Of a stretch of DNA of 64,000 bases, positions 27,995 through 61,900 are shown piece by piece. Source of the stretch: Gibbula magus (lineage: Eukaryota; Mollusca; Gastropoda; Trochida; Trochidae). The stretch spans positions 54,092,035 through 54,156,034 of the forward strand of contig OW388300.1 of the NCBI GenBank assembly GCA_936450465.1, given 5' to 3'. Position 1 is the stretch's first letter; every line of letters starts with the position of its first letter. Position numbers and translations under genes: made by a program. The notes under the pieces are model-generated. The model was not told the DNA's origin. It saw only the letters and a list, made by a program, of their open reading frames with translations, and ran no database searches.

Positions 27995-28065
27995 CCTTAT
28001 ACTGGACAATACCCTGTTGGAAGGTTATTATTCCGCCCTCCCAGCGGGTATTATCCAGTATAAGG
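27995..28065. repeat. 20-bp inverted repeat, copy 1
   Basis: CCTTATACTGGACAATACCC (27995-28014) pairs with GGGTATTATCCAGTATAAGG (28046-28065) across a 31-base loop. One position is an A/C mismatch as DNA (copy 2 has T there and is perfect). It lies about 85 bases after the tRNA-like head and may be part of the same SINE body. Confidence 0.85.
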
Positions 28066-30321: not shown

Positions 30322-30709
30322 GGTGGATTCGTAGACATATTATTATCGTTGATAACCAACTTCCTTTGGTGTTTTAAAATATGTGGTGAGTTGCTTTGAT
30401 TGTTGTAATTTACTGTTAGTAAATAAGGTTTTCGGTAGATTAACGACGTTAAAAAATCAGGATGTTGTGATGTGCTTTGATTGTCGATGGCTTACCGTTG
30501 GGCCTACTTCGCCGGAGTCTGCTAATCTCACGTTTGTTGTTTTATTTTAAACACAAGCATTCTCCAAAAAAATAACATCAACAACGACTATCTGATTTCG
30601 TTGTCTTAACTATACTTCGTTCATATTGTCATATCTTGATTTCATTTTGTCATCTTATATCTCATTATCATTGATTTATCCTATGTCTACGAACGTCTAC
30701 GAATCCACC
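30322..30709. mobile_element. Candidate MITE with 15-bp TIRs
   Basis: GGTGGATTCGTAGAC (30322-30336) and its exact complement GTCTACGAATCCACC (30695-30709) enclose 388 bp of non-coding DNA. In copy 2 the left end is altered (atggattattatgg) and the right end is intact. No clear target duplication is visible. Confidence 0.5.
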
Positions 30710-33700: not shown

Positions 33701-34289
33701 ATTTTTCAATCCATCTTCTGCAATGTATTATCATTATTGTAATGAGTGTGTCCAAACAAATATCAAATTCCTTTAAGCAGAATGTGTCTACCTCTTTTAT
33801 TCCACATTAGGCCGGAGAAAGTTCAGGGTCTAGTTGCTGGAAGCAGGTCACTATGATACTAAGGGCATCCAGTGTTCTGACAGCGTGATCAATCTTGGGA
33901 TATTGTTCATTGATTTTTAATCTAAATATGGCAATCCATAATTATGTTAGTCGATATATCAATTAACAACCAAACTCAGTGGAAATTAGTTAATGCTAGA
34001 TGTACATTTCATTTATAGTCTTGTCATTTTATACACAGAAGTGACGCAGGTATAATGTAGCAACAGTTAGCACACAGTCGACTTGGTCGATATAATCTGA
34101 TGGTGACTGACACACTGAAGGAGAAGCAGTCGTATCATTGAAGCATAGGAATGTACACAGGAATTCATCTTATAAGTTGATTTAAAACATCATTTGATTT
34201 GATTATCAGTGGAAGAGAATGGCATAATGAAAAATTACTATCATGATATGGTGAAATATGTTCAATCTTAGAATATATAGAGGATATTT

Positions 34290-34400
34290 GACATTTCTCG
34301 TCGAATACCATGTATATCTCATCGAGTGAAGTAGAAAAGCATATTTTCACGAGTGGCGCAGCCACGAGTGTAAATATACTATTTCTACTTCACGAGAAAA
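34290..34400. mobile_element. Hairpin MITE present only in copy 1
   Basis: The sequence around TACCATGTATATCTCATCGAG and AAGTAGAAAAGCATATTTTC is followed by the near-complement, with arms of about 37 bp meeting at GAGTGGCGCAGCCACGAGTG. Copy 2 runs straight through near 61,045 (cttataatatagtttgctatttc) without it, so it inserted after the duplication or was lost from copy 2. Boundaries are approximate; the indel is about 120 bp. Same family as 14,651-14,763. Confidence 0.7.
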
Positions 34401-36114
34401 TATAATAAACTTTGCTATTTCATTCGAGAAGTTTGAATGTAAATTTACATCGGAGATGACACTTGACATTGACTTGACTAATTGACAGTTTTATTGTGGA
34501 ATATACAAAAAAGGGAGGATTTGAAATTTTACTATCAAAGACAATCTGTTTTCTTATGTTTTCTTTCGACAGTTATAGAGGGCATATTTTAAAGATGCTT
34601 CATAGATTAACGTATATATTGTTCATTATTGTTAACTTAGATTTCGACTTACAGGGAAACAAAACTCATTTCACAGTTCTCAGTTCTTGTGAGTATTTGG
34701 TATAAATTCCTCTCTCTGTCACTTGCAACATTACAATGAACTAAACGCAATTCACATGAATAGATAAAACAAAATGTTGTGCTTCTAAAAAACTAGTTTG
34801 TTTTTAGTTCAGTGATCTGATGAGTCTATTTATTTTCACACATATTGTCAGTTTGTTTCTCAACACACGTCGCAATTCCGATCTTGTAGTGTAAACTTCT
34901 CACTTCTGAATCTTCAAGTATTTAATATCATACAAGAATCAATTCTTATAAGTTACTCTTCAAATGCTGATTTTTAAAACATGCGTTTCAAGAATTCAAC
35001 CAAAAGCTGTCTGTTATTCACATCACTAGCGATATTTAAGTAGGTTATCATACGCATCATAACTTAGTTTCCTGGAGATCTGGGATTGGCAATGCTATTT
35101 TTAATGTCTATCTGATGCATATCTAGATTATTATTGATTATATGAAGCATGGTCGGTAGTAAAAGGCCAGAATGCTATTGGTTGTACCATACAGTGTCTG
35201 TGATTACGCCAACGTCAATTGCTGGCACTGATAAACTATGACGTAATATATTGATCACTGTTGGATATCTTCATGTGATTTAGAGGTTTTATCACTTGCT
35301 CTTCTTAACTGCTCATACATTTTGTCCATTTGATTTTACTTTTAATAAAGTTGTACGTTTGCAGGTTATCAGATGAATGACTACAGACTTTAGAAGATCC
35401 CTTCGTGACGTCATCCTCCAGAGAAATGAAAGCTACAGAATTACATGAATCTCGTTGTTTGCTTAAACATGAAAATATACCCTCTCATCTCATCACTCTC
35501 CCCTTAAAGTGTGGATATTATTACAAACTAACATATTGTACTTAAAAAGCATGTGGTTCATGTGTTTGAAGGCTTATTGATTGCTGTGGAAGTTCAATTC
35601 ATTCTAACAATAAACAATTGTAAATCAATTTGTAATATGATAATTAAGATATTTATACCCGCTGTACTCCACATACATATGCCCAGAGCGCACACACGTT
35701 ATAACCCTGCTGTATAACATCGATTTGTTTGGCTCTCAACATACTTGGTGTATGCAACCTAGCTGACAATTGAGGAACTTTCTATATTATGTAAGGTTTT
35801 CATTAGAGTATTGAAGCTCTGAATGTGTAAAGAGCCAGTTATTTTTATCTGTAAATTATGTGAAGTTCCTGATTATCTGCACCATTTACAACATAGATAG
35901 ATTTCCTAGACATGGGTCCATGATGGGCCTTTTTTCAAAAACATTATACATTTTAAAAGGCTACAAACTATCACTCCTGTTACATGACACCAATTAAACC
36001 ATTTCTATTGATAAAACATGCAGAAACTTCAATAAATACCTCCGCCTTTGTAACAAATCCAACCAAAACCGGATACTGAAATGTGCAATTGATGTTATCT
36101 TTGGTTTTGTTATT

Positions 36115-39100
36115 ACCATATACCATTTGCAGTAGCCATAACATACCTGACCACACTGCATACTCCATACTAAATTAGTTAATAATGTAAATACTCTTCT
36201 CGGTCAGTAGAATACTACGTAGAGCGGCTGACCAGTATGAACAAAAACATCCAATCAGTTAGATTATTGATTTCTTTGAATGAAGCAAACTTATGAATAA
36301 TTAAATTAACAAACATAATAGCGAAGCATTGTTATCCTAGCTATGTGACATTTAAATGTTTACCTATGTGTCTACTTACGACAGCGTTGCTGACCATACT
36401 ATACCATTTCACAAGTTTGAAATCATTAGCTTCAAATGTCAGTCCCTGGCTGGACTTGTCCTCTGACGGTAGCAGATTAAATACACATTCACTCAGTAAT
36501 ATAGCTTAATGTGTCATTTTGTTACAATACCGGTTTTATTTCTAATTACAGACCAACATGCTCAAAATTGAGCCTTATTACAGATAGCTTTGTAATGGTG
36601 ACAGCACAAAACAGGCAAAGTTAACTGACTTCCCATTGCTGGGAGTGTGTAGGTGTTGCTGGTACCTTAAACCAGATCTACATTAAACTAATTGTCTTTC
36701 TGATGAGTTTTGACTATGTGTAATGATACTTCAATCTCACGGGGGTATGTCAGTAAGAAACATAATGGAAATGACGGGAGACGTGATAGTAACAGAGTCA
36801 GGGCTGTAAAACTTGCCACACGTGTATACAGCCTTACTATTAAACTTAATCCATGTTGCTGGCTGTGTTGTTTCATGATCTCTTATTGGAACTAAGAGAA
36901 GAACTAAAAAGAACAGTATTATGCAGATTGAATGATTCGCACCTGTTTAGGTCTGTAATGAGTTTTGAGATATTATAACAGAGTAAATAATGTAATTCGT
37001 CACTGACTTACGTCCAGTTTTCAAAATTATTTTTTTCTATAGAAGTTATACATTCTTTCTGAAAATGCTTGTTTTATCGAGTCAGATATTAAGGTTGGTT
37101 GTTGTGGTAGTTGCTCTTGCGGATTCCCTATTCTTTGTTGCCAGGACGTTTTTATCAAATGTTTCAATGTTTGTTTTGATGTTGAGTCACTACCAGCCAC
37201 ATCAACATGGGTGCCCGAGTATTGTTTGCGTGATGACTGCTTCTGCAATGTTAGGTGAGTCCCTTCAGTATATGTGTTAAACACGTGTTTGTTACCGGAA
37301 GCAGCCAAGCTCAACTTTCTATTAACTCAGAGCACCCGTGTGGTGACTTAGCTTACAGTGTGATTATGGAGTTAACATACCCACAGCTACTTGCATGGGC
37401 AATTAAAACTTAATTTACCTTGAAATGTTCACCAAGTGCAAATGAATATAACTGAACAATAGTAACATTCTGACGACATAAAATGCTACCTAGAACACTT
37501 ATTACGCCATTGCTATTATTTTGTTTTGTACATTATTAAGCAAAATATATACTTTATCATGACCTCTATAAATGTAACTTTCTTCTTGAATTAAACAATA
37601 CAGTTCATGTTAAGTGGAAGTTTGTGTTAAATTCCTTTGATTAAAAGGTGTCAGGTATCAATTACTGTTTTAAAGCTACATGTAATAAACGTGTCAAACG
37701 TTCGACTACTCCTACGTATTGATAGTAACATGAACATTATTCAAATATGTATCCGATTATCACATATAAATTATTTAACCTCTGGTAAACTTAAGAATGA
37801 AACATAATTGAAAGCTTATTTCGAAATGGGCCAGGGTTCCTTCCTCTTATCACAGTTAAGTTTTCTGGAATAAAGAGATAACATAGATATAAGGCGATCA
37901 TGTTCTTGAGTGGAGTTGTTTATGGGTTTGAATGATCGGGATGTTAATGAGGTTGTACATTTGACTGCTACAACTTCAGATATAATTTATTCTGAGTTAC
38001 TGATAATTGTGTTTTCTACCAGTTATTTTACCTTTATTCCCATATGCCACATATGCACATTACAAACGTGCTTTTGTATTTAAAGTTTAGAATACTAACG
38101 TATTATAGCTTATACTATTTGGTTGATCTATAATCTGACCACAAAAGAACATTAATTCAACACACGGTGCAAATAGATATTGGCGCCTATTCAGAAGAAC
38201 AAAACATTTTAAATTTTTCTCCATTATACATGTACATAACTTCAAATACGTCATTAATTAAATGAACAATTGCCCACAGTATTCTTTGAACATCATGGTA
38301 GTTGTATACTCTGTATATCGAGTGATACAATACACACAATAGTTCTTTTTATTGTTGATTTGACAAGTTTATTTGACTTTGATAGAATTGTGGACCACTA
38401 AAGTCATGAGGAGATGAATAAAGACTTGACAACCTGTATCAGTGTCACATTTACCGTATTATAACTTATTACTGAATAAGTATAATGTATCCGAAATATT
38501 TTTAAAAATATTTTAGCGATATACTGTCAGTTTACAACTGAAATCATCAAAGTTTCCCCGTCAAACCTTTGAAAATGTAAAGGCACAGAAAAGTTAAGGA
38601 TATACAGCAAGTCTTGAATCAGATAATGATCAAAAGTGGCTAGTTATGACTTGTGATGGAATCAAATCACAAGATTGCAACAATAAAGAACTAACTTACT
38701 AAAGATAGACTCTCACCTGAGAAAGTATATTGCCTTTTTATCTTCTTTCACTTTCTGCTAACGGCAGCATCAACTGCCTTTCCCTATTCAAGCAAGTCGT
38801 TTAAAAGTCGTTAAAAATCGACGCTCCACCATTGGCCTCTCCTTCTTCCCTCATTAATTATAGCTTTTGCCTTTCACACCTAATTAACTTTAATTACGTC
38901 TGCCTTTCCAATAAATCCAATTGGCATTCCTCGTTTCACCAATTTGTATTACTTATATCCACTATGACCACTATTTCAATAAAACATACATGCGTTCGTT
39001 TATTGAGCAATCAAGTATTAACTTCCCTCATGTTTGTATTGCAAAACTTCATTGTAGAACATTCCGTTGCATTTTTAATCTCTCTGATTGAGTTTCCTCA

Positions 39101-41869: not shown

Positions 41870-42591
41870 TTAAAGTCTTAACAAATATTGAGTCTTTTAT
41901 GTCAAGCTCAAAGCATTGTTGTTGACTAGCAAGAAATGTTTATGACTACTCAAGGATTTGAAAATAAATTCTTTGTTGTTTATGTAATATATTTATCAAT
42001 TGATTCTATATTGAAATAGCTTGGATTTTCTTAACATTTCCTTTGCACGTTCGTTATCATAGTGACCGTGCCGTTGACAAGCTCGCAGTCTAGAATTGTT
42101 CCTATTGTATTCTGCATCTGCATCAGGTAAACTTAAGAATGAAACATAATTGACCATTTATTTCGAATTGGGCCAGGGCTCCTTCTTTTTATCACAGTAA
42201 AGTTTCTGGAATAAAGAGATAACATAGATATAAGGCGATCATGTTCTTGAGTGGAGTTGTTTATGGGTTTGAATGATCGGGATGTTTATGAGGTTTTCGG
42301 TGAAGAAACCCTACATTTGATAACAACAAACTCAGACATGGTTTATTCAGAGATGCTGATAATTGTGTTTTCTACCAGTTTTAATCCCATATGCCATCTG
42401 CGCTTATGCCTTTGTTTGCACATTACAAACGTACATTTGTATTTACAGGTTAGAGTACTTAAAGGGAGTAGGAAAAGTAACGTATTTCGGACATTCAAAG
42501 TGTTATTTGAAGTGTAAACTGACATATAAAGCCAAAAAGTTTGACCTAACCACACTGAATATTGATTTTGTGGCTTCTAAACTTTATGACC

Positions 42592-42635
42592 TATAAAAAC
42601 GGTCACGAGAATTGACCTTTGACCTAGTGACGTCA
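42592..42635 (+). promoter_or_regulatory. Putative promoter of the THAP transposase gene
   Basis: TATAAAA at 42592-42598 lies about 105 bases upstream of the start codon. A perfect CRE palindrome TGACGTCA is at 42628-42635, followed by CGTCA. The positions fit a compact promoter at the left end of the transposon. No experimental support. Confidence 0.45.
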
Positions 42636-42701
42636 CGTCAGGAACGCATTTCGTCTTTCCCGCTAGATTGCGTCACTGAAAGTGTACAATTTGAGTGCGA
42701 A

Positions 42702-45700
42702 ATGCCGCGTAGATGTGTGGTCGGTGGTTGTAGCAACACTTCACATGGCAATATTATGCTACATGTTTGGCCAAGGGATGTTGCTATTGCATCAAATTGG
42801 ACGAAATTCGTACAAAGAACGCGAGTCGACTGGAAATCAGGTCCCAGCAAGTACAGCTACATTTGCTCAGCTCACTTCACAGCAGACGGCTATATCCAAC
42901 CAAATTATGTTGCCGCAACATTGGGATATAAACCCAAACTGAAGACTGATGCATATCCAACGGTATTGCCACCTAAATGTGATCAGAAGGACAGTGCTTC
43001 CATCGGATCTACAGACACCAGTCGAGCGGGCGTCGAGGTTAAAGTGACCCAGCGCTCTGCTTTTCGGAAGAGGGAATTTTCACGGGTGAGTTAAATTGTG
43101 AATTTTAATGAAATAGTATCTATATACACACTTTGCACCATGTATCCACTCTGTAGATGTTACGTTAGTCTTTTTCAGACGTATTGATTTAAGAATCACA
43201 AACAAAACAAAACGTGCTTTTGATTTTTCATTCCGTTCGGTTTTCGATCAGCTCTCGAGTTACCTGTTTTCGTGGGTTACCTATTTTCGTGATACATAAT
43301 GAATGTACGTTATTTCTCCCTAACTGCTCACTGTAACATGCGTTCTGCCTTTATCCAAGCAGCAAATCATTTTTTTTATCAATCAGCTCAACAACATGCT
43401 TCAGTAATGAAAATTTATTGTAATTTCAAGCTGATCACATAAATGCACTTTTGGGACAAACTTTATTGTTGATTTAAAAAAAGAATTCACAAATTCAGTT
43501 TCTCAATGGTGATTTTCAGTAAGCTGACATAACACTTATTCTCAATCAACAGAGAATTCCTGATATATTTTTATATTTTTGGTTGATAAAACAATCTTAA
43601 ATCTGTGTATAAACCTACCTTTATGTCAACAAAATCAAATAATGACGTGGTCTCTTATTAAAAGTTCTACAGTTCAATTTTATAAAATTAATAGTGAGTT
43701 TCACTAATTCTCTGTTTATTTATTTTGCTACAGATGCTACAGACAACAGGAAACAATTCTGATGAAGATACTGCCAAGCATATCAAAGTTGGGATTGATG
43801 GCCTTGAAAACATAATCAGTTCACATGAAAATTCAACTACAACCACCCAAACAGATGAAGGTCAGGATAGCACCTTTCTGTCTGATAAAAAGGTTCAAGT
43901 AAACCTGAAGCCAAAAAGAAGGAGTAAAGGTTTGTGAAATTCAACATATTATAATTCATCATCATGATTTTAATTCAAATTGTCAAATTACAAAATACTA
44001 ATAAATAACTTTATAATCAAATTAAAAAAATCTAGTTCTGTGAACAGCAGTTCTCACTGTACTACAGTAGACATACACAGTGTCAGTTCATCTCAATTTT
44101 ACTGTCAAACATTATGTATTTCATGAAAAATATTAATTTTAATTCCCAGCACATTTTATTTCTAAACATTCATGATTATTGAAAATGTAAATTTCGTTAT
44201 TACAGGTGTGTCCACTCTCAGTGTCCATACTGTCGATGCAGAGATACAGTGTGATCTGATAGCAGCTCCGCCACTGCAGCTTTTTTCGACAGAGGATCAT
44301 CAGCCGGTACAGCCTCCAGATGATGAGATCGTTGATGAACATAATGCCGATGATGAAAACATGTCAACATTTGATCCACGTGACTGTATAGATGAACTGT
44401 CATCTAATGCTTCAGTTTGCACGTAAGTTGAAAACCTATATGCATTTAATTTCTGCTTTCACTCAAAATTTTCTCACTGAAATTGCATCATCGTCACTTA
44501 ATGCCAAATATATGACAATTATTTGGGGGTTTATTTTAATGAAAATTTACAGCCTCATTCATAACACAGGGGTTTCATTAATTTATAAGATAACAGGGTG
44601 ATAAATTTGTACAGGCAGAAAAAGCAGGCTGTTAAGCAGTGTGTTAAGATTGAAATATAATAAATTTGACTTTTTATAGCCGGGTAATTACATTAATACA
44701 GGAGCAAAACCCATAGTAACAATTGACTATAAGTGATTCACCAATTTTGTTTTGGTTAATTTAGTGGGTTTTATTTTGATTATACAGAGATTTTGATCAA
44801 TTTGAAAGAAGTCGTCCAGCCCACCATCAGGATGTGTATCTTGTATATGAAGACAGTTTGCTGGAGCTCTTCTCAGTGTGTCCAGACTGTAAGAGTGAAT
44901 GTGCTGCAGGAGTGGATCTGGTTATAGGCAGCCTTGTGAGAGTCAAACAGCATTGTTTGTCTTGTAACTTCAAGAGGTCCTGGGACAGTCAGCCATTCAT
45001 AAACAACACCCCTGCTGGAAATGTGATGCTTTCTTCGGCTATGTTATTTTCAGGTAGGTTTGTAGAACTTTTGATAGATAACAAATTAATTGAGCTACGT
45101 AACTTTTTTTCAAAATTCCAATGTCTGAGTATGTGTAGTTATTTCCATTATCGTCACTCACAGTGTGTAATTAGAGTATGGGGAAGTCAGGGTTTCTCCT
45201 TTCAGACCATAACCAATAAAATGTTGATATTCATAAATTAAATTTTCTACACGCATTACATTTATTAGACATAGTACAATTTAATTATATTGTCCTATTT
45301 TTCTCACAGGTGCATGCATAGCAAAGACTCTAAGAATTTTCAGCCACCTTGGAGCTGCGACAATAAGTTACAAGACCTTCACCAACCACCAGCGTTACTT
45401 CCTTATTCCTGCCATTGAATCACTTTGGAAATCAAGCCAGTCATCCCTTATAGAGGAGTTGAAAGCAAGTGATGTACCTCTGGCTGTTGCAGCTGATGGC
45501 AGAGCTGACAGTCCTGGACACAGTGCTAAATTTGGATCTTACAGTCTGCTAGAAACTCAGCACAATAGGATTCTCCACATGGAATTGGTAACGGTAAGTC
45601 ATAACAAGTATTCACCAGAGTCACATTCTTTTCAAAGATCTAGTCATTCAGACTAGTACATTTCTGAAAGTTCTACACCCATGCTAGCCAATTACATGTA

Positions 45701-48172
45701 TGATTATGTCGTCTGTAATTTCAACTTGTATTGTTCTTTACATTTTAGTAATCAACTTATTGTTCTTTACATTTTAGTAATCAAGGTTATTTACTTGGAT
45801 CAATGGGTTATTGCATTTTGTAACACTGATTCATAAATGATCATTGTCTTCAAAAAAAGACTCAAATTACTGCTGGTACATGTATTACCATGTGATTTGT
45901 AAATGATGGTTTGTTTGTCTAATAGGTCACAGAGGTCAACAACAGCAATCAAATGGAGAAAGAAGGGTTGCTCAGATCCCTCCGGTTTCTTAACTCACAA
46001 GGTGTAACAGTACGTTATATTGTGACTGACCGACATGTATCGATCCGAAAGTTCCTCAGAGAGAATCGACCCGACATCACACACTTTCTTGATGTTTGGC
46101 ATGTTGCGAAAGGTAAGCCACTACACATCACCTAATGTTTCCTCATTTTAGCTCTTCAGGCTTGAAAGACCAGATGGGTTTATGGCATGGGCAGTTGTCT
46201 GTCGTCCATTGATGTTCATTTGGTTCTCACCCCACTCACATGAGAATAACAAAGCATTATTAATGAAACCTTTAAGCTAAGACTTCTATAAAACAGTTGA
46301 CATTAGAAGCTGTTAATTTCAGAAACTGATAAACGTATTACGTATGTTTTGTCCAGATCCCCCACAAATATGGGCGTGGCAGGGGTCCACCCTAAAATCT
46401 TTTAACAACTTCTCTATAAGACCCACTAATGGTGTGATTTGTGAATTTCATTACCATACTATTGACTTCTACATTTGTCTTATATACTGGTAATAAACTA
46501 AGTAATATTATGTTACAGGTCTTGGTAAGAAAATTGACCAGCTTGGGAGACAAAAAGGGATGGAGCTGGTGAAGCAGTGGAAGAAGTCCATAACACACCA
46601 CCTGTACTGGTGCGCCTCCTCCACTCCTGAAGCAAATCAAGATCTCATTCTAGCCAAATGGGAGTCTATCGTTGGACATTTACAAGGACAACACTGCCAT
46701 TCTAATTCACTCTTCCCAGCATGTTTACATGGACCATTGGCTGGAGCAGAAAGGAAAAAGAAATGGTTTAAACCAAGTAAGAAAAAGTTTTATATTTTAA
46801 TATGCATCATTAAACCTACTGTAATATTAAGGAAATAATGACATTTTACTAAATGTATAAATATCTTCCTCAATCAAGAAATGGAATTCTAAGATAAATG
46901 TCCATAGTGTGATGGAGCAACTCTAACCCATGTTCTCACTGTTCACACTAAAACGCCTGCTCGATCGGTGCTAAGTTTTCACCTTTTAATGTAACATTGA
47001 ACAGTATGAACTTCATTTATTGATTGAAAATTTAAAAACATATAAACTGTATGAAAAACTTGCTACTTTCCTTTTAAGGCATAACAAAAATAATGAATGA
47101 TGGAAATAAAGGAATGATATTGTAACATATTGAATTCTTTTTCAATTTCCTATTTTCCAAGACACACCAGAATGTGAGAAGTTGATGATGATCCTGGAAG
47201 GCACCCGAGTCAAGAAGGATGTTGCAATGCTCTCACCAAACACTCAGACTTCACACCTTGAAGCCTACCATGCTGTTGTCAATCACTTTGCACCCAAGTT
47301 GACAAGTTTTTCAGCTGAAGGAATGAAGGCAAGGTTAGTATTTTTGCATGGTTTGAAATTGTCTTCCCAATTCCACACTGGCAACTCAGGACAGTTTGAA
47401 TCAGTCATCAAGGATTTGTTGACAAATATTCTAACCAACTTTCAAAAGTCATATAAACAATCGATCAAATACAAATATTTCATGTTGATAATCAATTAAT
47501 AGCTATTGAGGCTTTATCAATTGCTGATATGGTTGGTAAGCTTTGTATCTATGTTGTTGTTGATTTTAAGTATCTTTTTCTTCCTATTATATATAGGTTG
47601 CGACTAGCCTCCCTTCACTTCAATGAGAACAGTTCAAGAGAGCAGGCCACAAGTGCTGATGGACAACAGCAGTACTCTCTTGAATTTAAGAAGTTCAACC
47701 ATGGAGAAGCCACACTGAAGAAAGTTCTTGTTTCATGCACATACAGTAAGTTATTTAATCATGAGTACAAACTGGCTGAATGTATGGTTAAAAACACTTA
47801 TAAGGCTTATGTATTTAAATTTTAGGTTGACATTTTCAAGAATTAATTCTCATGGGTTAACATTGTTAACAAGTTACATCACATTTCAACTTTGAGGGGA
47901 TTTTGCCCTTGGGAAGAAGACAAATGGATTTTAGGTTGTGACCTTATGTATATGTGGCCTTTATGTATATATTATTATTTATATTTAGTACAGAAATAAT
48001 ATCTGTTTCAGGTTATGTTGAGACCTTGAAGGATATTGTTGTGGGGCTAGTTGAAAATGGACAAAAGTGTTGTGTGAAGAAAGATGGACCCTCAACAATA
48101 GCTTCTACACTAAAGCAAGGACAAGTCAGTAAAAATGAATGCATCCAGCTGCACCAGTCAAGATATGCATGA
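42702..48172 (+). CDS. THAP-domain DDE transposase, Kolobok type, 10 exons, 629 aa
   Basis: Exons: 42702-43085, 43734-43929, 44206-44422, 44788-45053, 45310-45593, 45926-46112, 46519-46776, 47162-47333, 47597-47745, 48012-48172 (stop TGA). Every intron is GT-AG and the joined frame is 1,890 nt without a stop. Residues 1-89 form a THAP zinc finger: C5, C10, P24, W33, C55-x2-H58-F59 and AYPTVL at 84-89 in place of AVPTIF. Residues about 95-160 are an acidic linker. A zinc ribbon follows (C169/C172, C194/C197, W203). The RNase H-like core has D289 in ADGRADSPGHSAKFGSY, D356 in VTDRH, FLDVWH at 375-380, and E503 in TSHLEAYH, which I take as the DDE triad by family resemblance. It should bind the TIRs and cut at TTAA in the nucleus. 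The start was chosen because MPxxC opens the THAP fold. No broken exon seen. AATAAA at 48357 may end the mRNA. Confidence 0.9.
45731..45786. repeat. Tandem duplication of about 29 bp in a transposase intron
   Basis: The phrase ttgttctttacattttagta is repeated head to tail, separated by atcaactta, in intron 5. It creates a second 'ttttag' acceptor-like site, but the true acceptor (ctaatag) is at 45925. Confidence 0.8.
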
Positions 48173-48181
48173 AGAATACCT

Positions 48182-48362
48182 TTTATTGTGTATGATGTAA
48201 GTGTTTCCTAGTTTTAGACTTGAACCACTGACCCTAGAGGGCAAGTGTACTTTACAATTTGTCCTGTTGCGCTAATGATAGCTCCTTGGGATACACTATC
48301 ATGAGAACTTGTAACATTTAAATGTAATGGTACACCTTTGCTCTCAACAAACAGTAAATAAA
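48182..48362. promoter_or_regulatory. Overlapping convergent polyadenylation signals
   Basis: AATAAA on the plus strand (48357-48362) is 185 bases after the transposase stop. AATAAA on the minus strand (48187-48182) is about 206 bases after the ballast-gene stop at 48393. If both are used, the two mRNAs overlap tail to tail by roughly 150-200 bases. Confidence 0.5.
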
Positions 48363-48392
48363 AACAGAATAGCCCTGATGCAAATTTCATTT

Positions 48393-49770
48393 TTAATTAT
48401 ATTTAAATCCTTCATATTCCTCGGTTGGGGATGGAAAGTGTTTCCTGATCTTGGAGACGATGCAAGAAGGGATAACCCTCCTAACATCTCTCCCCAGCCA
48501 CCCGTAGCACCATCTGACCACTTGTCTGTAGGCAATGTGTCGATATTTCCTAAAAAGAAGAAATGGAGTCTTTTGTAATTGATAATCTTTTCTTTTCATG
48601 TTGCAGGTGAAGATGAACTACCTCCTGGACATAATTATAAACATCCTGATTCATTCATGTGGATTCAAAAGATGTACATGTAGTAGTAATTCACATTTTA
48701 TGAAAGTAATATGCTAATTTATAAATTTTATGATTAATGAATTTCTAATTGTCCTCCTTTTAGTATGTACAATGTGAGAAACATCCCTTTGTTTGAGAAT
48801 TTTGCCCAAGTTAAAATGAGATGTTATTTATATAAATCATCACAAAAGAGGGTTATGTAAAAGTGGCCAATATTGGATTTTTCTTAAGATATATATTATT
48901 AACTTTAAATAAACATTGTACATAAACATGTTTTATCTAGTATTCTACCATATCTTTAAAATGTGTTAACAAGTTCTTTATGTATATATGATTAATTATT
49001 ATCATCTGCTTACTCCATCAAAATATCTGTATAAATATTGTCAAGAAATAAATATTTCCTATCAAGATTTCAATTCTTATATTTGCCTCACTTGAATATT
49101 TTCAATGTAATTTTAGTTACCGTATTCGACATATTCCTAGTGCTTATAAATTTGTAAACAAAAACAAAAACTTGAAACAATGAGTTATATCATTTAAGGT
49201 GTACTGTAGTAAAATCTCTTGCCATTCCCAAAACAAATTAGATCAAGTATACAAATTTTGAAAGCCTTAAAAAGGGGCGCTTATTGTTTAAGTCAAAATC
49301 ATGATTATAAGGACTAGGGAATGGGCATTAATTATGTCGAATATGGTAAATATGAGATTGTCTTACTGGTCTGGTCGTTTGGCGGAGTCGTCTGTGTTGT
49401 ACTGCTGTCTGAACTGGAAGTAAGCTGTGTCCAACACATCAGTGTTGAGGCAGACAGCATGACAACTGGGATGGAGTGTGAGACAGGGAACAGGAGGGTC
49501 CACAGCTGAGCACTTGTCCCGATACTGGGGCACCTCCTGACAACACAAGCTCTCGCGTGCAGTGGGCATACCCTCACATAGGCCACACTGACACCTGAAA
49601 ACAAAATGTGTTATGTAGACTCATACAACTTCTCCACATTGAAAAATCACAAACACACATTATATTTTAACACATGCATATTTCGATCCCATAAATAGGC
49701 CTGTGTAAACTTTATCTGTGGAAATATGTTTATTGTCAATTAGAAAAGTAGCAGAAAGTAAAACTGCCCC

Positions 49771-49815
<45 letters not shown>

Positions 49816-50742
49816 GCCAATTTTATCCAGGTAATTCAAGTTGTCTTAATATAATCACCAAAATGAAATCATCTAAAGCTAAAACAATGTTATCTCAAAA
49901 GATCTTATGATGTATGATACAGTATGTACAGTAAGAATGTCAAATTTTGGTTTTGTTATTCTTACTTTGAAAAGAAATAAATTAAGTTGCTGAAAGCCGT
50001 CAGCACTAATAAAACCATCAAGGGCTTTTCCAATTACATATTTCTAATTTACGACTATCAAACTATTAAATAACAAAAATAAACAAATAATCAAGAATAT
50101 GAAAACGAAATCATGTTGGTCAATGAACCGATGTAGCATGCCATGTACCTGTTTACTGTACGCCAGTGTACGGTAAACATTGCATATTTCGCAATGAAAA
50201 CTAAGATTCATCAAACAAATAATGAAAAAGAAGACGTTATTTATTATATACCAAAAATAGATAGTCCTACATGTATATGCTAAACTAAAAGAATTGTTAG
50301 AAATTTCGATCTGCTTACGATCAAGCGTCAAGGGACGTAACTCTAAATTGACGTTATGATTTTGTTTTGTAAAAACTAAAAGTCGCTATTTGTATACTTT
50401 CCCAAACATATAAAGTGGGTTAAATAACTACATACTATATACAGTTAATTAGTTATGACAGAAATGAAAAAGAATGACAAGAACGTCATTCCTTTGAAAT
50501 TTAACTAACCATGCGATGTTGTTGGCTCGGCCATTGTCCTCGTCCGACTCTGTATCATCGCCGTCAGAACTTGCCGATGTTGACCCCCTTTCTGGCTCAT
50601 ACCTGTATGGTACATAGTGTTGAGCGCTACCCGTCGTCAAGTTTGCTCTTTCCGACTCATCTTGATTGCCAGATGAGTCTGAAAGCCACGGAGAACCGTC
50701 GCTGTCATCGCTCATATCGAATGTAATCTTCGTTGACGTCAT
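48393..50742 (-). CDS. Stand-alone P2X7 C-terminal ('ballast') domain protein, 3 exons, 205 aa
   Basis: Minus-strand exons: 50742-50510, 49594-49367 and 48549-48393 (stop TAA). Both introns are GT-AG, both splits are phase 2, and the joined frame is 618 nt. Residues 1-77 are acidic and Ser/Asp-rich, with VPYRYEP at 44-50. Residues 78-205 match the zinc-coordinating cysteine domain best known from the cytoplasmic tail of the P2X7 channel: W78-C79-Q-C81-x2-C84, C95-C96, C115-x3-H119, C126, then AYRQVVRW at 160-167, LGRDVRRVIPSC183 and a C-terminal FPSPTEEYEGFKY. There are no membrane segments and no channel domain, so it is a soluble stand-alone version. It lies wholly inside the transposon, convergent with the transposase gene. 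M10 could also be the start. Its role in the element is unknown; regulation of transposition or of the host response are only possibilities. Confidence 0.88.
49772..49809 (+). repeat. Homopolymer run of 38 C
   Basis: Uninterrupted C run in intron 1 of the ballast-domain gene (G run on its sense strand). Exact length is uncertain for assembly reasons. Confidence 0.9.
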
Positions 50743-50795
50743 GTTTGTGTTCCCTCTGCTACGTCACATTGTCACGTGACGTCGAATTTGACCTT
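50734..50795 (-). promoter_or_regulatory. Putative promoter of the ballast-domain gene
   Basis: TGACGTCA (50734-50741) overlaps the start codon. Upstream on the minus strand are TACGTCACATTG-type (near 50,760) and GACGTCACGTGAC (near 50,780) motifs, that is CRE and E-box cores. This mirrors the CRE at the other end of the element and forms part of an imperfect subterminal inverted repeat. Confidence 0.45.
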
Positions 50796-51867
50796 TTTCT
50801 AGGTCAGTAGTTTTAGCAATGTTTGGGGGCATGTATCTTTTTAATGCATACTCCAAAAAAATATTTTGGCAATGGAATTGAATAATATTAGGTATATTAG
50901 TATGCTGGTACCGATAAATAGTCGGATTTTAGGTTAATTTCCTACTCCCTTTAAGTATAATAGATTCACTATTTGGTTGGTCTACGATCTGATCATAAAA
51001 TGACATTAATTCAATACACGGTGCAAGTAGCTTCTGGCTTCTATTCAGAAGAACAAAACTTTTTACAGGTATACTCTATTATACTTCACATACGTTATCA
51101 AATGAAGTATCTGAACAGTATGTGGGTCTCACCTCTAACATTGACCCAGTCTCAATATGCAATCATGGCACACTACAATAACAAACTTTAATGAGAGGTG
51201 ATTTGTCAGCTGTGTGTGGTTTCCGGTGGCTGCCTAAGAGAGATAAACTTGTTTATGTTGGGGTGTGTATTTAGTGTTAACCTAAATCTGCTGATAAAGG
51301 ATTTTGACTGGTGAATGTAACGAAGAAAGGAGAGTGTCTATCAATCAGGATCACATAAACATATATAAATTTTGTATTACTGCAGTAAAAACTATTTTTT
51401 TGTATTGACATTATTGAAATATGGTTTACATTTTAAGAAAGGTGTAAATAAGTGTTGGCATTAATTGTATATGTGCAAAAAAAGCAAGTTCATTTGATTG
51501 ATTTATTACCACAAATTTCAATGAATTCAAAAATCCACTTCTGTTATATCCCGAGCGAGAGCGAGGGTTATAGATAACTTTGCATGAGTTTCGTAAATGA
51601 CATATGGCACACTTTCGAGTGCAATATTACCCATTTTATTCCATGTGATTGGTCAGGAAACGGCCCACATCTCTTTGGACGGCAAGCTAGAGTGGCGTAA
51701 CGAACAATCGTTTTATGACGTCACAAACGACGAAATAAGGGAACTCACGGTGAAACAATGGTTGCTAGGCAAACATGATATGTGCTTGTATCAATAATAT
51801 TAACTTGATTATTTTCAATCATATGGGTAATAAGCATATTACATTGTACACGTTATCAGTCCTAATA

Positions 51868-51924
51868 AGTAAGCTTTGAATGAGTAAGCTTACTGATTGA
51901 ATGAGTAAGCTTAATAGCTGAATT
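51868..51924. repeat. AGTAAGCTTA microrepeats, copy 2
   Basis: Duplicate of the cluster at 25,224-25,280, identical over the motif region as far as I can see. Confidence 0.75.
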
Positions 51925-54476
51925 AATAATTTTACAAATATTAGTTTTGTAAGATTACTTTTTCGGATGATCCAGTTAGCTTACACATCATTAAGTAATG
52001 TTACTACTGTACATGTAGTTCAGTTGATTTATAAATGTATATATTTGATGTCGACATACAAGAACAAACAGCTAGGCACAAGAACCCATCACAAATTTAC
52101 GAACCTTTACTTGAGAAGCCTACTTATAATTACAACTTTGTACTCGATAATCTACTGCCAAGTCCAAAAGTGGCACCATGTTACATAAGCATTCATGTTC
52201 CTCGGGCGGTGGAGAGGGCAGATTCTCTTCTATATACTTGTGTATGTCTAAATGTGTTCTATTCTTAGATGTATCATTAACATTTCACTTGTTCCGTTTT
52301 GTGGATTGTTGTTGCTGCTGTGCCTGTGTGATTACCTATGGGAACTAGATTCAGTTGCTTTGGACACGGATGCAGAGCTTACAAAACATATTTTAAACAT
52401 TGAATATCATATAAATGTCTGTGCTTAACTATTTAATCGTCATCAATGAAGACAAACCGAGGATAAACATGCGGATTCATATACTCTGACTACAACACGT
52501 TTATGTTTTTCTTTTCTCGCTATTTGTGATAACAATTTTACAGCCTCTTGACTTCCTAAGGTTGACGGCATGAATGCTGATAATAAAAACAACAAGGATA
52601 GATTAATGATGATCCTTATCTTTTGTATTTGAACTTTATTAAAATATAATTAATAGACTTGTCTTGAAATTGGTATACAAGGTTGAAACAGTTAAAGTTG
52701 AACTTTCAAAGCTATGCGATTGAATAGTCCCAACAATGATTGTTCTCAGTAAACGTCCAAGCATGACGTTATATAGTTAAACCTACAGTTGTGTGCTCAT
52801 TAGACTATGATACCTCATATGACACGGTATATTCAATAGGCAGCATATAACTTTATTTGCAAAGCCTGAACTCATCAAATATATCTTAATGTTGGTCAGA
52901 TGCAGGACAACATTCTGAAGTCTCTGAAGCAGTGTATAGGTCTTGCCTCCTCTAACATTGATCTAGTCTCAATGCGCAATCATGGCACACCACATTAAAA
53001 ATAAATAATTTGAGGTGTTTAATATGTAAACCGTATGTATGTCATCTATGTGTGATTTCCGGTGGCTGCGTGAGAGAGATAAACTTGTTTATGTGGGGCG
53101 TGTGTTCAGTGTTAAACCTACATCTCTGAAGACACTCAGGGGATAAAGAAGTGGATGTGAATACATGTTTTCTTGTTATTTGTACTAACATTTATTCCGC
53201 ATCTTGACTTCTTGGCCTGGTTTATGTTTCATTCTAAAACAGCCACAAAATGTGTTGGATAACTAGATCCTTACTCAACTGGGAAACTCCCTGTTAGCTG
53301 TTCTGCTGTTGTATGTAAAGATTATCAGAAACGTCAGTAACTGTATCATGTTACTGCTATAATCAGGATCAGGTAATAAAACATTCTGACTCCTAACCAT
53401 TAAGTTGAGATAATGCTGTACTCCTTTCAAGATATTCAACCTGATGTTCACCTTTCACCAAACTGTCAATTACAGTCAGTTAATCCATCATGTTGCAAAA
53501 CTCAAATAGGTTAACAATTTATTATCTTTCACCAATCCACTTTTTTTTACTTCTCAACTCAGGAAGGGCGTCAGGTTTGAAATATTTAAATAAAGAAATA
53601 TATAAGTTATATTGATATATTTTCTGAATAGGATCATACAACATCCATTTTACTTTTTGTTATGTATGAGCAAATATTCAAACATGCAACCCTTCATGAG
53701 ACTATAAAGGGCTGTTAGAAACAAAATGAATGTTTGTCAGTGAAAAGTCTTCGCTAGATTGATAAATGTGAAGCGCACGTGGTAAGCATGGGACGCGTGA
53801 TAAGAGCACTAGAATATACAGAGTATGTTCTGTCAATTGCATGGAATTACAGGGAGGATTAGTAATAATGTTATTATTTACCGCGTTAACTAAACTGACA
53901 TACAATATAGCTCGGTATATTGTTCTATCAAAAATGTATGGAAAGCAGTATACACTGTAGTATTATAACACTTACAAATAACCTAACACGTTTCTGTAAT
54001 GTCTCTCACTTACACTTGCACTTGTTCAATGAGTTCAGATTTATCTCAGTAGAATGTATAAAGGAAAATCCCTTAAATGACATCAGATTCAATGGCACTG
54101 ATTGGATTGTAGGATTGTCTTTATATGAACATTATTTATTGTATGTCATGTTGAAGATGAAATATTCTTTAGCGATTGGTGTCATATATATGTGCTGAAA
54201 GATAGTTTTGTCTTAGAAGGACTTAACATACTTGATGTAATGGATAACACTGAATACGAGGGCGGGCTAACAAAGAGAGGCCTTTGCCCTAGGGACGACC
54301 AGAGGACGCGTTGGAATGAGGTTGTTATCTATTTTATATATGGAAACAAACTAACGTGAGTGTAGTTGTCTAAAGGTATACTGCAGTTGGTTCAAGTAAA
54401 ATAAAGCGCTCATAAAATATCATGGAAGTTCTCCGACGGCAGAATACTGATACAATCAACCCTTCTCAGTCACCAA

Positions 54477-54549
54477 TCCTTCGTAGTCTAGTGGTAAAGC
54501 CTTGGACTACAAAGCGAAGGGTTCCGGGTTCGAATCCCGCATTGTCTGC
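54477..54549 (+). repeat. tRNA-derived SINE head, copy 2
   Basis: Identical A box (54484-54494) and B box (54527-54537) to copy 1, with the same unpaired acceptor halves. It is present by the tandem duplication, not by independent insertion. Confidence 0.7.
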
Positions 54550-54633
54550 TATGTAAATTTTAAACTTGGCAATTGTTTTTACCTTATTAAATAGGACTTA
54601 CACTTTCTTGGGTACAAAGAATTGTACTTTGGG

Positions 54634-54704
54634 CCTTATACTGGATAATACCCTGTTGGAAGGTTATTATTCCGCCCTCCCAGCGGGTATTATCCAGTAT
54701 AAGG
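54634..54704. repeat. Perfect 20-bp inverted repeat, copy 2
   Basis: CCTTATACTGGATAATACCC (54634-54653) is the exact complement of GGGTATTATCCAGTATAAGG (54685-54704), with a 31-base loop. Copy 1 differs at one base of the left arm. Confidence 0.9.
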
Positions 54705-55835
54705 ATTTCTCAATAGGAATTGTAGTTACTTTCGGAGGGAAATTCTCCCGGAAAAACAACTGCATTCAAAACTGTTAAATGGGCGTTGAGGTATATAAGG
54801 CTCTTTAAAGCATGAGACATTTCTGTAGGTCGTACAACTTGAATGTTAATACCCTTCCTCTCCATAGACCTTTAGAAGACATGTACAAAAGAATTTAAGT
54901 TTTATCATGGCTTACATTTCAACACTGTCTATTGTTGAATAGCTATTATAGGTATAAGCGCACGCATCTTCATGGGAGGTTATTATATACGAAGATATTG
55001 TTGAATTGTTTGTTCATAAATTATATTCTGGTTGTCAAAACACTTCTGAATTATTTTGAGGACTCAATAAGAGAACCATAGCCATCATTTCACATTATAT
55101 GTGGGTAGCCTAACGTGATATGCGAAATATTAGTTCTCAGAAGGGTATATAATTTATACAGTTTGCAGAATGTCATTTGGTAGATATTTAAAAATGATAT
55201 GTCAAAATAATATCATACAAAATGTGTTCAATTTATAATTTAATGACTTTAAATTGCAGTTATAGTTGAAGATCCGAATCGCTGGGTATAGATTTTGACC
55301 GGACTGACCTTTCAGGACACCTTCATTTCGGCCTTTCAAAAACATTATGTCAAGAGAAACCGATATAGATTTAGAGAAAACAAGCTTAAATCCTTAAAGG
55401 TTAGATGAAATGACATATGGATTCTTTGAGAAGGGGTTTCAAATTGACAATTGCTCGATTTTAAATTTCTGAAATCGACCAATCAATTACTTATATACGG
55501 CTTTATAAAAAAGTGCCTAATTAAGCCCCGGCGACCAGAATGAAAGTGGGCGGGCTGTTGTCACTGAAGCGTATCGTGCTGTGACGTATGTGGAGGAGTC
55601 TCACTATGGTCGCTAATCTTAATATGACGCATGTTCCCAAATTTTAAAATGCTCATATAAGACAGACAACTTAATCAAAACAACCCAAATTTTCGATAAA
55701 CGGATTACTTAACTATTTAACTAGCGATTTCATATGGTTACAACGACTGGGGCCTGCTGAATTGGAGTGCATTCTGTGCTTATGTATAGTATGTTTGTAG
55801 CAATTAACCGCGAAACTGCTGTCATATCACTTTCC

Positions 55836-55990
55836 ATGGAGTGTTTGTCTTCAAGTTCCGTCATTTCAAGTGACGTGGCCGATGCCTTGCCTTACCTGTA
55901 TGAACCAAATGACAGTTCAAGTGACATTGACACAAGAGAAGAAGACTCTCGCGAGAATCGGGGCGAAGAGAGATTAAGTAGCACCAATTG
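55836..55990 (+). pseudogene. Orphan first exon resembling a ballast-domain gene, copy 2, open
   Basis: From ATG 55836 the frame runs 51 codons to TGA at 55989 without the stop found in copy 1 (TCA here where copy 1 has TAA). It encodes an acidic Ser/Asp stretch with LPYLYEP and ends RLSSTN then TG|ATCAAA, the place where the homologous exon in the transposon ends TG|GTTAGT within a Trp codon. The donor is therefore missing in both copies. No partner exons are seen before the window ends. A fragment of an older ballast gene is the best reading; a chance acidic ORF is the alternative. Confidence 0.45.
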
Positions 55991-55991
55991 A

Positions 55992-58900
55992 TCAAATTAT
56001 GTTCCATAATCGGCAGGTTAATTTTGTTTTGTATGTATTAATAAATAAAGTAAAATATTAGGTATAATTTCATAAACACTTAACGATTGGCTGTTCAAAT
56101 AAGCGAGACAACATTGATGTAATGCAATGCAAACCATTTTCACTTCACTTTCATGAATAAATACATGAACTGGATTGGTCAACAAGCTCAATGAAATTAA
56201 CATGAACATTGCTCCATTGTACACGCAAACATATACATTATGATAACACAGATTGATATAGACAACGAACATTATCGAAGGAAAGAATTATGTTATCAGT
56301 AGCATCTTAATGCACATCTCGTAAATGAAAACGAAATGGTTTAATACAAATTGTCACTTCAGCACACCAACACACAATTCTCAGTTTAGCGTACCATATA
56401 TGTAGATGTTTCTTCCAGATCAAAGGGGAGAAGTGTTGTTAATTAGTTTACTCAATTAAGAAGCTGAGTATGTGAGAAGGAAGGAGTGTAATTATGTTTG
56501 TACATATAACAAGTTTACTGGACTGATTCAAGTATATAACAAATGGCATGTCGGTGACCAGCGTGTCATATATGTTTATTGTCAAACGTCCTGTCTTGGT
56601 GACACACAATACACTTAACTCGACATTCAGTCTATATTTTTTTCTATCTTGCTATTTGCGAAAAGACTTTCTTCTGAAAGAGGGTTAGTATTTGACCATG
56701 TTCTGTTTCCAAGTACTGTCATTGATTGATTTATTGGTTTACAATTTCTGTCTTTAGTGGGAATTTGATATTCATATTGTCCGTTTTCTTACATTAATTG
56801 ACACTCTTGCTGAAATGTCAATTTAATACGATGTTAATTTGATTTGATTCACCACACATTTTATTTAAAACATTATTTTATTATCTATTAGATTCTGAAT
56901 GTTTTAATGTGTTAATAAGTGATAACTAAATAGTAAAATGTAACATTGGGATGCAGTGTTTTCGTAGATGGATTATTATGGACATATTATTATCGTTGAT
57001 AACCAACTTCCTTTGGTGTTTTAAAATATGTGGTGAGTTGCTTTGATTGTTATAATTTACTGTTAGTAAATAAGGTTGTCGGTAGATTAACGACGTTAAA
57101 AAATCAGGATGTTGTGATGTGCTTTGATTGTCGATGGCTTACCGTAGGGCCTACTTCGCCAGAGTCTGCTAATCTCACGTTTGTTGTTTTATTTTAAACA
57201 CAAGCATTCTCAAAAAAAATAACATCAACAACGACTATCTGATTTCGTTGTCTTAACTATACTTCGTTCATATTGTCATATCTTGATTTCATTTTGTCAT
57301 CTTATATCTCATTTTCATTGATTTATCCTATGTCTACGAACGTCTACGAATCCACCGTCTTATATTTGATATATATAACGATATTTTGGGACGTTTGTAA
57401 AGTGAAACCTGATAACTAATATTACTCGAACAGTTTACAGCAGAACAGCGATGTGGCATTATTGCAAAGCGTAGATATAACATATTAACTGACCGATTCC
57501 CCAGTGTTTGCCATTGTAAATAGTAAGCGAATGTTCACATCCCGTCCCTTCACGTACGCCAGTTCCGGTATCTTCCAACTCTCTAAGCCCCGCCCCAATT
57601 TTGGTTTGTTGTTCGCTGGTGAAAAGCAGAAGATGTGTTCGGCAAAGTTTAAGTCTCTGTAGTTTAATATAGGAACAACATATTGATTTTTGGGGGATAT
57701 CGTTTTTCACAAAATAGTCTAATGAACCAATTGCAGTTAAGAATTCAATAGAAAACAATATATTTCGGCCTTCCTTTAATATCAAATGTCAATAAGTGAA
57801 TACAATATAATAAGTCCATGTGAAAATGTCATGCGAAAGATAATTAATGTCTACAAACCACATCTTTTAGTAAACATGAAGGGGCACAGAAGAAGTAGGA
57901 GACAATCACTTTAACAAGTAGTTTCAAGTCAGTCTTCATATGTTCTTTAAATCTCAAGCACAGAACATATTATCTAGATAGTTGTTTGTTGTAGTTGGTA
58001 ATTATTCACTGCATATGTTACTAGATGAGGGTAACATGATGAAAAGTTAAGCTTAAGGAAGGTGAATAAAGATGTTTACAAATTACAATATACATGTTAC
58101 TGTGTAGGAACCTATAACACAGACAAAGACCTGTGTTTAAAACGGTTTCTATGTAAGGTACACCTCTTTTGAGACGCCCCTCGTCCTGTATAAACGTCGA
58201 TTGCCAGGTTTAGGAAATTACCCTGGAATTTTCCTTAGTCACATTGTACATTAGCCTTTTGGACTATTTGCCTATTAGCGTGGTCATTGGCCTACTGGGG
58301 TTTGTGTCAGACACATAAGTGGAGCATTACTGTTCACGTTTTTCAACCTGATTGTTACAGTGTTATAAGTGTGTGCTTACTCTCAAGTTACTGTACTGTA
58401 CTTTATATATAATATTTCTTTAGATAAATTAAGATCAGTTCTTAAAAATCTATACATCATGCATATATATAGAAATACTGATGGTCGAAAGTTGATCCAT
58501 TTAAATTATATCATTGAACACATATTCAGTAAATCTTTGTATCATATATGTTTAAAATTTAAGGTCAGCATATTAAAACAAAAAAATGCGATGTTTCACA
58601 TTTTGTAAAACCTTCTATTTTATGTGTTTGCTAACTTCCTAGTTCTGTATGTTACTTTGTTGCTACTCCATTTATCTAAAGGAACCATTGCTCTATAGGG
58701 GATAGAGTTTTTACCAATGTTTTACATACATTTTAATTACGATATCGAGTTCCACTGATTGCACATGAGGCGGTAGTATACATTAGGGCACATTAGGATT
58801 CAGTATTTAAAGTACCTGGAAGAATCCTAGCTCATAGGTCGGTACCGTACACCAACACACAGCTTATTGTAATCTATGATCTAAAGACCCTCCTTCACGT

Positions 58901-61900
58901 ATTTGTTGGAGTCTCGTCAGGTACTTCCTTGAATATTAATTATGTTTTAAATATACTACGTTCCACTCTTGTGAATGAAAGCATCAAATCTTACACAGTA
59001 ATTCTAACAAGGTTTGCAAAGCCCTGTCGGTATTCAGTTTATGAGAAGAAAACAACCTTAAGAGTAAAAGTGATAGTTATGACAAGTTGTTATAATATAC
59101 ATCAAAAGGATACTTTCATCCCTTTCTTCACAAAACGTTTTAATTTCTCTGAATATAATTCGGTGGAGACACTTTTTTTTATATTTCAATGTGTCTCAGG
59201 ATCTGTCGATACCTCTGATGGTTTGTGAAGTTATCTCTTCGTAGTCAAACACTAACATAACATTCACTTTTCTTAAGATATAGCTTACAGATGTGCCAGT
59301 AAACCATATGGGATGTGTTCTTCTTTAGAAAATTTAACTAGGTGAAACCCCATCTCATCATTTATGTACCTGCTTACGGCTAGAGACCACGAATGTTAGT
59401 GATCTGTTTAATATTTCAATGTAGTCAAACAGTAACAAAACATTACATTTTCTAAAGAAATTTCTGTCAAAATGACACTCGATCTCATCAATTTGTTAAG
59501 GTCTCATGACTACAGATCAAGGACCCATAGTGTTAATTATTGATTCGTTTTGTGATATATTTGATTTTTTACATGATAAAAACAGAGCGTATCGGGGACA
59601 TTATAAACATACCATTGATATATCCTTGTGCTAAATGAAAAAACATATTTTAATGAGAAACGTTATTTTAATGGATTAATTAACATACTTACATAGTTAC
59701 ATTAATTATTGACTTACAGAGTTACATTAATTATTGAGTTAATATGAGAAGAAGTAAACGATGCTTTGATTTATTGTTGCATGTTGAGTTTTGTTTCAAT
59801 TCTCCTTCAAAACAGCTTGAAACTGATCATGAGAGAGTGGCAATGAGAATAAGCAAACACATAATTTACCTTCTCATGGGAAATGTAGTGGATCTTTCTT
59901 TAGTTTGATGTTTATTCGGATTAATGTGGCACTAAAGTGGTTCGAATGTTGTTAATTATTGTTTATTGTATACAAAAGCTAATATATCAATTTCTTGTGT
60001 GTTTCGCCTTGACACAGGTCATATAACTGCAGGCTTCAAGATCGATGAACATTAATAAACATAAAATTGACAATGTTTATGACATTATTTCACGATAGAA
60101 ATCAATTCCTGTGTAGAATATAAATCCTCTCTGACAACTGCTCTTATAAATCTTTCGACACAAAAATTAAATCCCCAATCTTCTACTGATGTTCACCTCA
60201 TAATCAACATACTTGGAATTCAACAACTGGCAAGCACAGGGCAAAGTCGAATGAACATTCGTCAAGCTTCGGCAATTTTTACCAGTTGAACTTTACTTTT
60301 CAAACTGTTTATAATCCAATTAACAAACACGTAAGGAATTCTTTCTTAATTCTAACAGTAATAGATGTTTTGTGGTAAGGTAATTTAACACAAACAGTTA
60401 CAAATAGTGATAATCACAACAAAATGTATTATTTCTTTGCAATAGGTTATTAATTTTCAATCCATCTTCTGCAATGTATTATCATTAATGTAATGAGTGT
60501 GTCCAAACAAATATCAAATTCCTTTAAGCAGAATGTGTCTACCTCTTTTATTCCACATTAGGCCGGAGAAGGCTCAGGGTCTAGTTGCTGGAAGCAGGTC
60601 ACTATGATACTTAGGGCATCCAGTGTTCTGACAGCGTGATCAATCTTGGGATATTGTTCATTGATTTTTAATCTAAATATGGCAATCCATAATTATGTTA
60701 GTCGATATATCAATTAACAACGAAACTCAGTGGAAATTTGTTAATGCTAGATGTACATTTCATTTATAGTCTTGTCATTTTATACACAGAAGTGACGCAG
60801 GTATAATGTAGCAACAGTTAGCACACAATCGACTTGGTCGATATAATCTGATGGTGACTGACACACTGAAGGAGAAGCAGTCGTATCATTAAAACATAGG
60901 AATGTACACAGGAATTCATCTTATAAGTTGATTTAAAACATCCAATTTCCTTTGGAAAAAACAAGTCATTTGATTATCAGTGGAAGAGAATGGCATAATG
61001 AAAAATTACTATCATGATATGGTGAAATGTGTTCAATCTTATAATATAGTTTGCTATTTCATTCGAGAAGTTAAAATGTACATCGGAGATGACACTTGAC
61101 ATTGACTTGACTAATTGACAGTTTTATTGTGGAATATACAAAAAAGGGAGGATTTGAATTTTTACTATCAAAGACAATCTGTTTTCTTATGTTTTCTTTC
61201 GACAGTTATAGAGGGCATATTTTAAAGATGCTTCATAGATTAACGTATATATTGTTCATTATTATTAACTTAGATTTCGACTTACAGGGAAACAAAACTC
61301 ATTTCACAGTTCTCAGTTCTTGTGAGTATTTGGTATAAATTCATCTCTCTGTCACTTCCAACATTAAAATGAACTAAACGTAATTCACATGAATAGATAA
61401 AACAAAATGTTGTGCTTCTAAAAAACTAGTTTGTTTTTAGTTCAGTGATCTGATGAGTCTATTTATTTTCACACATATTGTCAGTTTGTTTCTCAACACA
61501 CGTCACAATTCCGATCTTGTAGTGTAAACTTCTCACTTCTGAATCTTCAAGTATTTAATATCATACAAGAATCAATTCTTATCAGTTACTCTTCAAATGC
61601 TGATTTTTAAAACATGCGTTTCAAGAATTCAATCAAAAGCTGTCTGTTATTGACATCACTGGCGATATTTAAGTAGGTTATCATACGCATCATAACTTAG
61701 TTTCCTGGAGATCTGGGATTGAAAATGCTATTTTTAATGTCTATCTGATGCATATCTAGATTATTATTGATTATATGAAGCATGGTCTGCATTAAAAGGC
61801 CAGAATACTATTGGTTGAACCAAACAGCGTCTGTGATTATGCCAACGTCAATTGCTGGCACTGATAAACTATGACGTAATATATTGATCACTGTTGTATA

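Follow-up and report, generated by a model that had tools for sequence, protein, structure and literature searches.

Organization of the element

The window analysed here, a 64-kb stretch (64,000 nucleotides) of the genome of the gastropod Gibbula magus, contains an 8.5-kb element at positions 42459-50954, with two convergent spliced genes inside. One is a predicted transposase gene; the other is predicted to encode KolX, a small protein with the ballast domain of the P2X7 tail. From left to right, the features of the element are as follows.

42459-42462, no strand: left target-site duplication TTAA (from the sequence)
42463-42475, + strand: left terminal inverted repeat, AGGGAGTAGGAAA, 13 bp (from repeat search and end comparison)
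42702-48172, + strand: predicted transposase gene, 10 exons, 757 aa (gene model)
42702-43085, 43734-43929, 44206-44422, 44788-45053, 45310-45593, + strand: transposase exons 1-5
45926-46112, 46519-46776, 47162-47333, 47597-47745, 48012-48172, + strand: transposase exons 6-10
48393-50742, - strand: predicted KolX/ballast gene, 3 exons (50742-50510, 49594-49367, 48549-48393), 205 aa (gene model)
50938-50950, - strand: right terminal inverted repeat, reverse complement of AGGGAGTAGGAAA, 13 bp (from repeat search and end comparison)
50951-50954, no strand: right target-site duplication TTAA (from the sequence)

The terminal inverted repeats are perfect over 13 bp, and the identity between the two ends stops past TTAA plus these 13 bp. 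In the region 42000-51400, searched with 12-base seeds, the element ends were the sole inverted repeat of at least 20 nt (20 nt, 100% identity), and there were two direct repeats of at least 20 nt, of 27 and 24 nt. The 13-bp inverted repeats with TTAA on both sides, which had been described in an earlier sequence-only reading of this DNA, were thus recovered by both repeat search and end comparison. The 64-kb window has exactly two occurrences of AGGGAGTAGG, one at each element end, against 0.02 expected. A search of the window for diverged copies of the ends, with up to three mismatches, returned 6 matches against 4.19 expected, and those with zero mismatches were the two true ends only; no second copy of the element was detected in the window at E <= 1e-5. 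The pre-insertion target, reconstructed from 42456-42462 and 50951-50957, would be TACTTAAGTA, a 10-bp palindrome centred on TTAA.

Elsewhere in the window, a single open frame at 17389-18477 (+ strand) encodes a rhodopsin-type GPCR (Pfam 7tm_1, E 1e-19), and a 51-bp minisatellite at 4403-4919 (10.2 copies, 97% matches) is open in three frames over both strands.

The predicted transposase

All nine introns of the transposase model are GT-AG. When GT and AG sites at most 8 bases from those read by eye were tried, 12 combinations were open, yielding proteins of 704-757 aa; the 757-aa model was chosen as the closest to the eye-read splice sites and is also the longest. The earlier claim of two genes with in-frame splicing holds in that both are open with GT-AG introns and the ballast protein has the expected 205 aa, whereas the 629-aa transposase was not reproduced.

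Residues 5-88 of the predicted transposase form a THAP domain (Pfam PF05485, E 2.3e-13), as in Kolobok transposases. Over the DDE core, Pfam produced sub-threshold matches only, to ISL3 and MULE transposases, and PF20700, found in many of the relatives, was not reported by Pfam for the 757-aa protein. A protein search with residues 300-757 yielded 230 relatives among 7996 scored candidates, and the 120 of these that were listed were aligned; the top identity among them is 48%. Across these 120 of the 230 relatives, D417 is kept in 120, D484 in 118 and E631 in 116; in the DVWH motif at 505-508, D505 is kept in 117 and H508 in 115; and H565, H570, C580 and H582 are kept in 119, 120, 119 and 120, respectively. 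From this conservation, D417/D484/E631 are identified as the putative catalytic triad, DVWH as the DxxH signature, and H565/H570/C580/H582 as the H2CH finger, all of which are described for Kolobok in passages of PMC9587614 and PMC6004289. With the roles assigned in this way, the order of the motifs is that of Kolobok transposases: the C/DxxH motif lies between the second D and the E of the DDD/E core, and the H2CH zinc finger between DxxH and the E.

KolX and its ballast domain

Both introns of the KolX gene model are GT-AG; the first contains a 43-base tract made up almost entirely of C (49767-49809). The predicted protein matches Pfam P2RX7_C (PF20478) at E 9.8e-20 and, in the PDB, mouse P2X7 (9e3q) at 7e-08, in agreement with the earlier recognition of a P2X7-tail gene between the element ends. 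Each of the two products thus has a Pfam match of the kind anticipated from the sequence, THAP (2.3e-13) in one and P2RX7_C in the other.

Relatives of KolX were collected by a first protein search, which retained 3 of 49 candidates, and a search with the alignment as query, which retained 30 of 4396. The top identities are 44% over 79% of the query (P0131) and 53% over 36% (P0145, a 99-aa fragment). Cysteines were compared across the 20 ballast relatives of at least 150 aa, drawn from 29 besides P0003 (143 aa): C79, C95, C96 and C115 are kept in all 20, C81 and C84 in 19, and C183 in each of the 16 that extend to that part of the protein. The second protein of the element accordingly has the seven ballast cysteines of KolX. 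R157, H158 and R189 align with R546, H547 and R578 of the P2X7 GDP site; R574 and K583 of P2X7 are not kept, with V185 and S194 at the aligned positions. H158 is common to only one of 17 relatives, and Rump et al. (PMC7016195) reported that H547 is absent from their invertebrate set. The N-terminal part of KolX is acidic.

When viral contigs were scanned with the ballast alignment, 38 pattern matches came up, none of them a relative. The Ixodes ricinus protein P0147 (363 aa) combines a THAP domain with a weak ballast match (4.1e-4, under the Pfam cut-off); PMC7016195 notes a comparable THAP-ballast protein in Ixodes scapularis.

In Branchiostoma floridae, LOC118415275 is a full-length THAP transposase (P0044, 764 aa) and LOC118415276 is a ballast protein (P0002, 207 aa). 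The LOC numbers are consecutive, and the longest contig has 29,550,017 bases in both records; these labels, from which we infer adjacency, indicate the same transposase-ballast pair in amphioxus. The amphioxus proteins, known from protein records alone, are 40% (transposase) and 37% (KolX) identical to those of Gibbula. When the 30 ballast proteins were compared by eye, through their labels, with the 120 of 230 transposases that were listed, B. floridae was the only match.

Structure prediction was carried out on P0002 (207 aa), the amphioxus relative of the window KolX. The mean pLDDT of this model is 65.3, with 10 of the 11 ten-residue blocks in 91-200 at 77 or above and 83 of the 207 residues below 50. 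All 13 PDB matches of the model at E <= 0.001 are P2X7, and the matches are modest (TM 0.40-0.43 of the query, rmsd 3.8 to 12.3).

A quick transposase tree, with SH-aLRT support only, was built for 31 rows picked from the 120 listed relatives, all of them database proteins rather than Repbase Kolobok references. The window transposase pairs with a Nymphon protein (99), and the two fall in a group of four with proteins from Montipora and Knipowitschia (90, drawn open); the amphioxus transposase linked to KolX is placed elsewhere, not as a near neighbour. Because linkage to KolX is known for only one row other than the window transposase, the tree speaks neither for nor against a single KolX-bearing lineage.

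The ballast gene had been called cargo in the sequence-only reading. It does lie within the element, but the word does not fit in the sense of a passenger, given the pair indicated in amphioxus and the published status of KolX as the accessory protein of this lineage. A host gene trapped by chance between the ends of a single copy would agree with the one copy visible in the window and with the two genes being separate units on opposite strands. Against this stand the consecutive LOC numbers of the amphioxus pair and the account in PMC9587614 (Kojima and Bao 2022), in the passages on Kol0, that these Kolobok families encode two proteins, a transposase and KolX, so that we consider a chance passenger very unlikely.

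Insertion site and integrity of the assembly

Two stretches elsewhere in the window correspond to the flanks of the element without the element itself.

24302-24305, no strand: first empty site, TAAA; the paralogous stretch around it shares ~95% identity with the joined flanks
37781-38229, + strand: second empty paralogous stretch, site TAAC, 80.5% identical and more diverged

The joined flanks align with 23966-25816 at 95.7% identity over 1855 columns; in a tighter comparison of 1350 columns, the identity is 95.4%, with 4 gap openings, and the alignment is free of gaps for 40 columns on either side of the junction. The empty paralogue shows that an insertion event occurred at this locus. The sequence-only reading was right about empty paralogous sites in the window, although they read TAAA and TAAC. 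TTAA flanks the element at both ends, as expected of the 4-bp duplication of Kolobok, and because the two empty sites differ from it in sequence, TTAA is an inferred target rather than one observed in them. In the case of TAAA at 24302-24305, a single substitution after duplication would account for the difference.

The surrounding sequence is a tandem segmental duplication of ~13 kb, aligned in three pieces between 24304-37117 and 50953-63728 at 95.7-97.5% identity, and parts of the duplicated block recur as more diverged copies between 36095 and 40879. Reading through the block (23000-37900) in six frames produced no Pfam match (E <= 0.001 in two frames, E <= 0.01 in four), so no host gene is named in it.

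Flanking paralogous 13-kb blocks are a hard-to-assemble kind of sequence, and the structure might be taken for an assembly artefact, or else for two neighbouring host genes lying between chance repeats. However, the junctions coincide exactly with TTAA and the inverted ends, and AGGGAGTAGG is confined to the two element ends within the window. An assembly join is unlikely because the ~95% identical stretch that lacks the element aligns to the joined flanks without a gap at the junction. Altogether, we regard this explanation as extremely improbable.

Classification of the element

We conclude, with a probability of about 0.93, that the locus at 42459-50954 is a Kolobok DNA transposon of the Kol0 type with a KolX gene, complete in structure and probably autonomous. 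The THAP domain (2.3e-13), together with the conserved DDE, DxxH and H2CH residues, bears out the initial impression of a TTAA element of the Kolobok type with a THAP domain and a DDE core. The element ends read AG...CT and so follow the 5'-RR...YY-3' pattern of Kolobok. The TTAA target is also used by piggyBac, but the THAP domain, the DxxH and H2CH motifs, the AG...CT (RR...YY) ends and the full set of seven zinc cysteines in the ballast protein leave a negligible probability that this is a piggyBac or other TTAA element instead of a Kolobok. The ends also match AGGRR, the end motif given in PMC6004289. The Kolobok type is apparently Kol0, the lineage with KolX as its second protein. The two predicted proteins, scanned with Pfam to E 0.1, had no match to the helicase, exonuclease or His-Me nuclease of KolobokH, D, E and P.

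The transposase-ballast pairing, which the sequence-only reading took to be possibly uncatalogued, is real and has been in print since 2022 as the KolX of Kol0 (Kojima and Bao, PMC9587614, in its Kol0 passages); the Gibbula element is a further family of this published kind. By sequence identity, it is a distinct Kolobok family, with a top identity of 48% for the transposase among the matches listed and 44% or 53% for the ballast protein. As described in the relevant parts of PMC9587614, KolX has the ballast fold of P2X7, with a similarity to human P2X7 over residues 476-595 that extends to the seven cysteines, and P2X7 originated when a P2X4-like gene became fused to KolX. The suggestion that transposition offered a route for capture of the domain by a channel therefore matches an origin already proposed by those authors. 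The ballast domain was surveyed across animals, including oyster and limpet, in PMC7016195, the excerpts of which do not mention a transposon link. In a full-text search, we know of no paper beyond PMC9587614 that connects Kolobok or KolX with P2X7; PMC9319628 contains Kolobok and P2X7 once each.

Proposed mechanism and implications

As inferred from the superfamily, the THAP-DDE transposase would bind the short inverted ends and excise the element, which would then be inserted at TTAA by cut-and-paste. Cut-and-paste into TTAA is the behaviour of the Kolobok superfamily, and we propose it here because the superfamily behaves in this way and the empty site fits. The convergent second gene would yield KolX, a small protein whose N-terminal part is acidic and which carries a dinuclear-zinc ballast domain; most likely it assists the transposase complex or takes part in the regulation of transposition. 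Following Kojima and Bao, the ballast domain would be native to Kol0 elements and subsequently captured by P2X7, not taken from P2X7.

An unlikely further possibility is that KolX supplies, as a separate protein, a guanine-nucleotide function that would be the counterpart of the one built into the P element transposase. The idea arises because the P element THAP-DDE transposase requires GTP for pairing and positioning its ends (PMC7776569, in part), and the P2X7 ballast binds GDP/GTP, according to passages of PMC7016195 and PMC9859053; a statement in PMC7776569 that the P element is unique in its use of GTP counts against it. If Kol0 transposases relied on KolX for nucleotide-dependent assembly, then P2X7 would have kept its nucleotide site as a relic of transposition. 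The abstract of PMC9859053 describes a ballast domain with GTP/GDP and zinc sites. The Gibbula element, apparently intact, belongs to the element type thought to be the source of the P2X7 ballast domain and, because both genes are open, could serve as material to study the role of KolX.

Comparison with known systems

KolobokP, as outlined in PMC9587614, resembles the Gibbula element in having two genes, with the accessory one on the complementary strand. It differs in two respects: it carries a His-Me nuclease, for which the two predicted proteins of the Gibbula element gave no Pfam match up to E 0.1, and it has long terminal direct repeats (~450 or 660 bp), which were not found in the window element; the longest direct repeat in 42000-51400 is 27 nt.

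With the cytoplasmic ballast of P2X7 (PDB 6u9v, 8tr5 and 9e3q), KolX appears to share the zinc-coordinating cysteines, and three residues of the GDP site, R546, H547 and R578, have apparent counterparts in it. Unlike P2X7, KolX has no channel part and carries an acidic N-terminus in its place.

The THAP domain reported for a Kolobok transposase in the pertinent passage of PMC6004289 is likewise present in the window transposase. The closest correspondence is with the Kol0 lineage of the Kolobok-1_XT type, with which, going by the description in PMC9587614, the element has in common TTAA, the RR...YY ends, a DDE transposase with DxxH and a zinc finger, and KolX.
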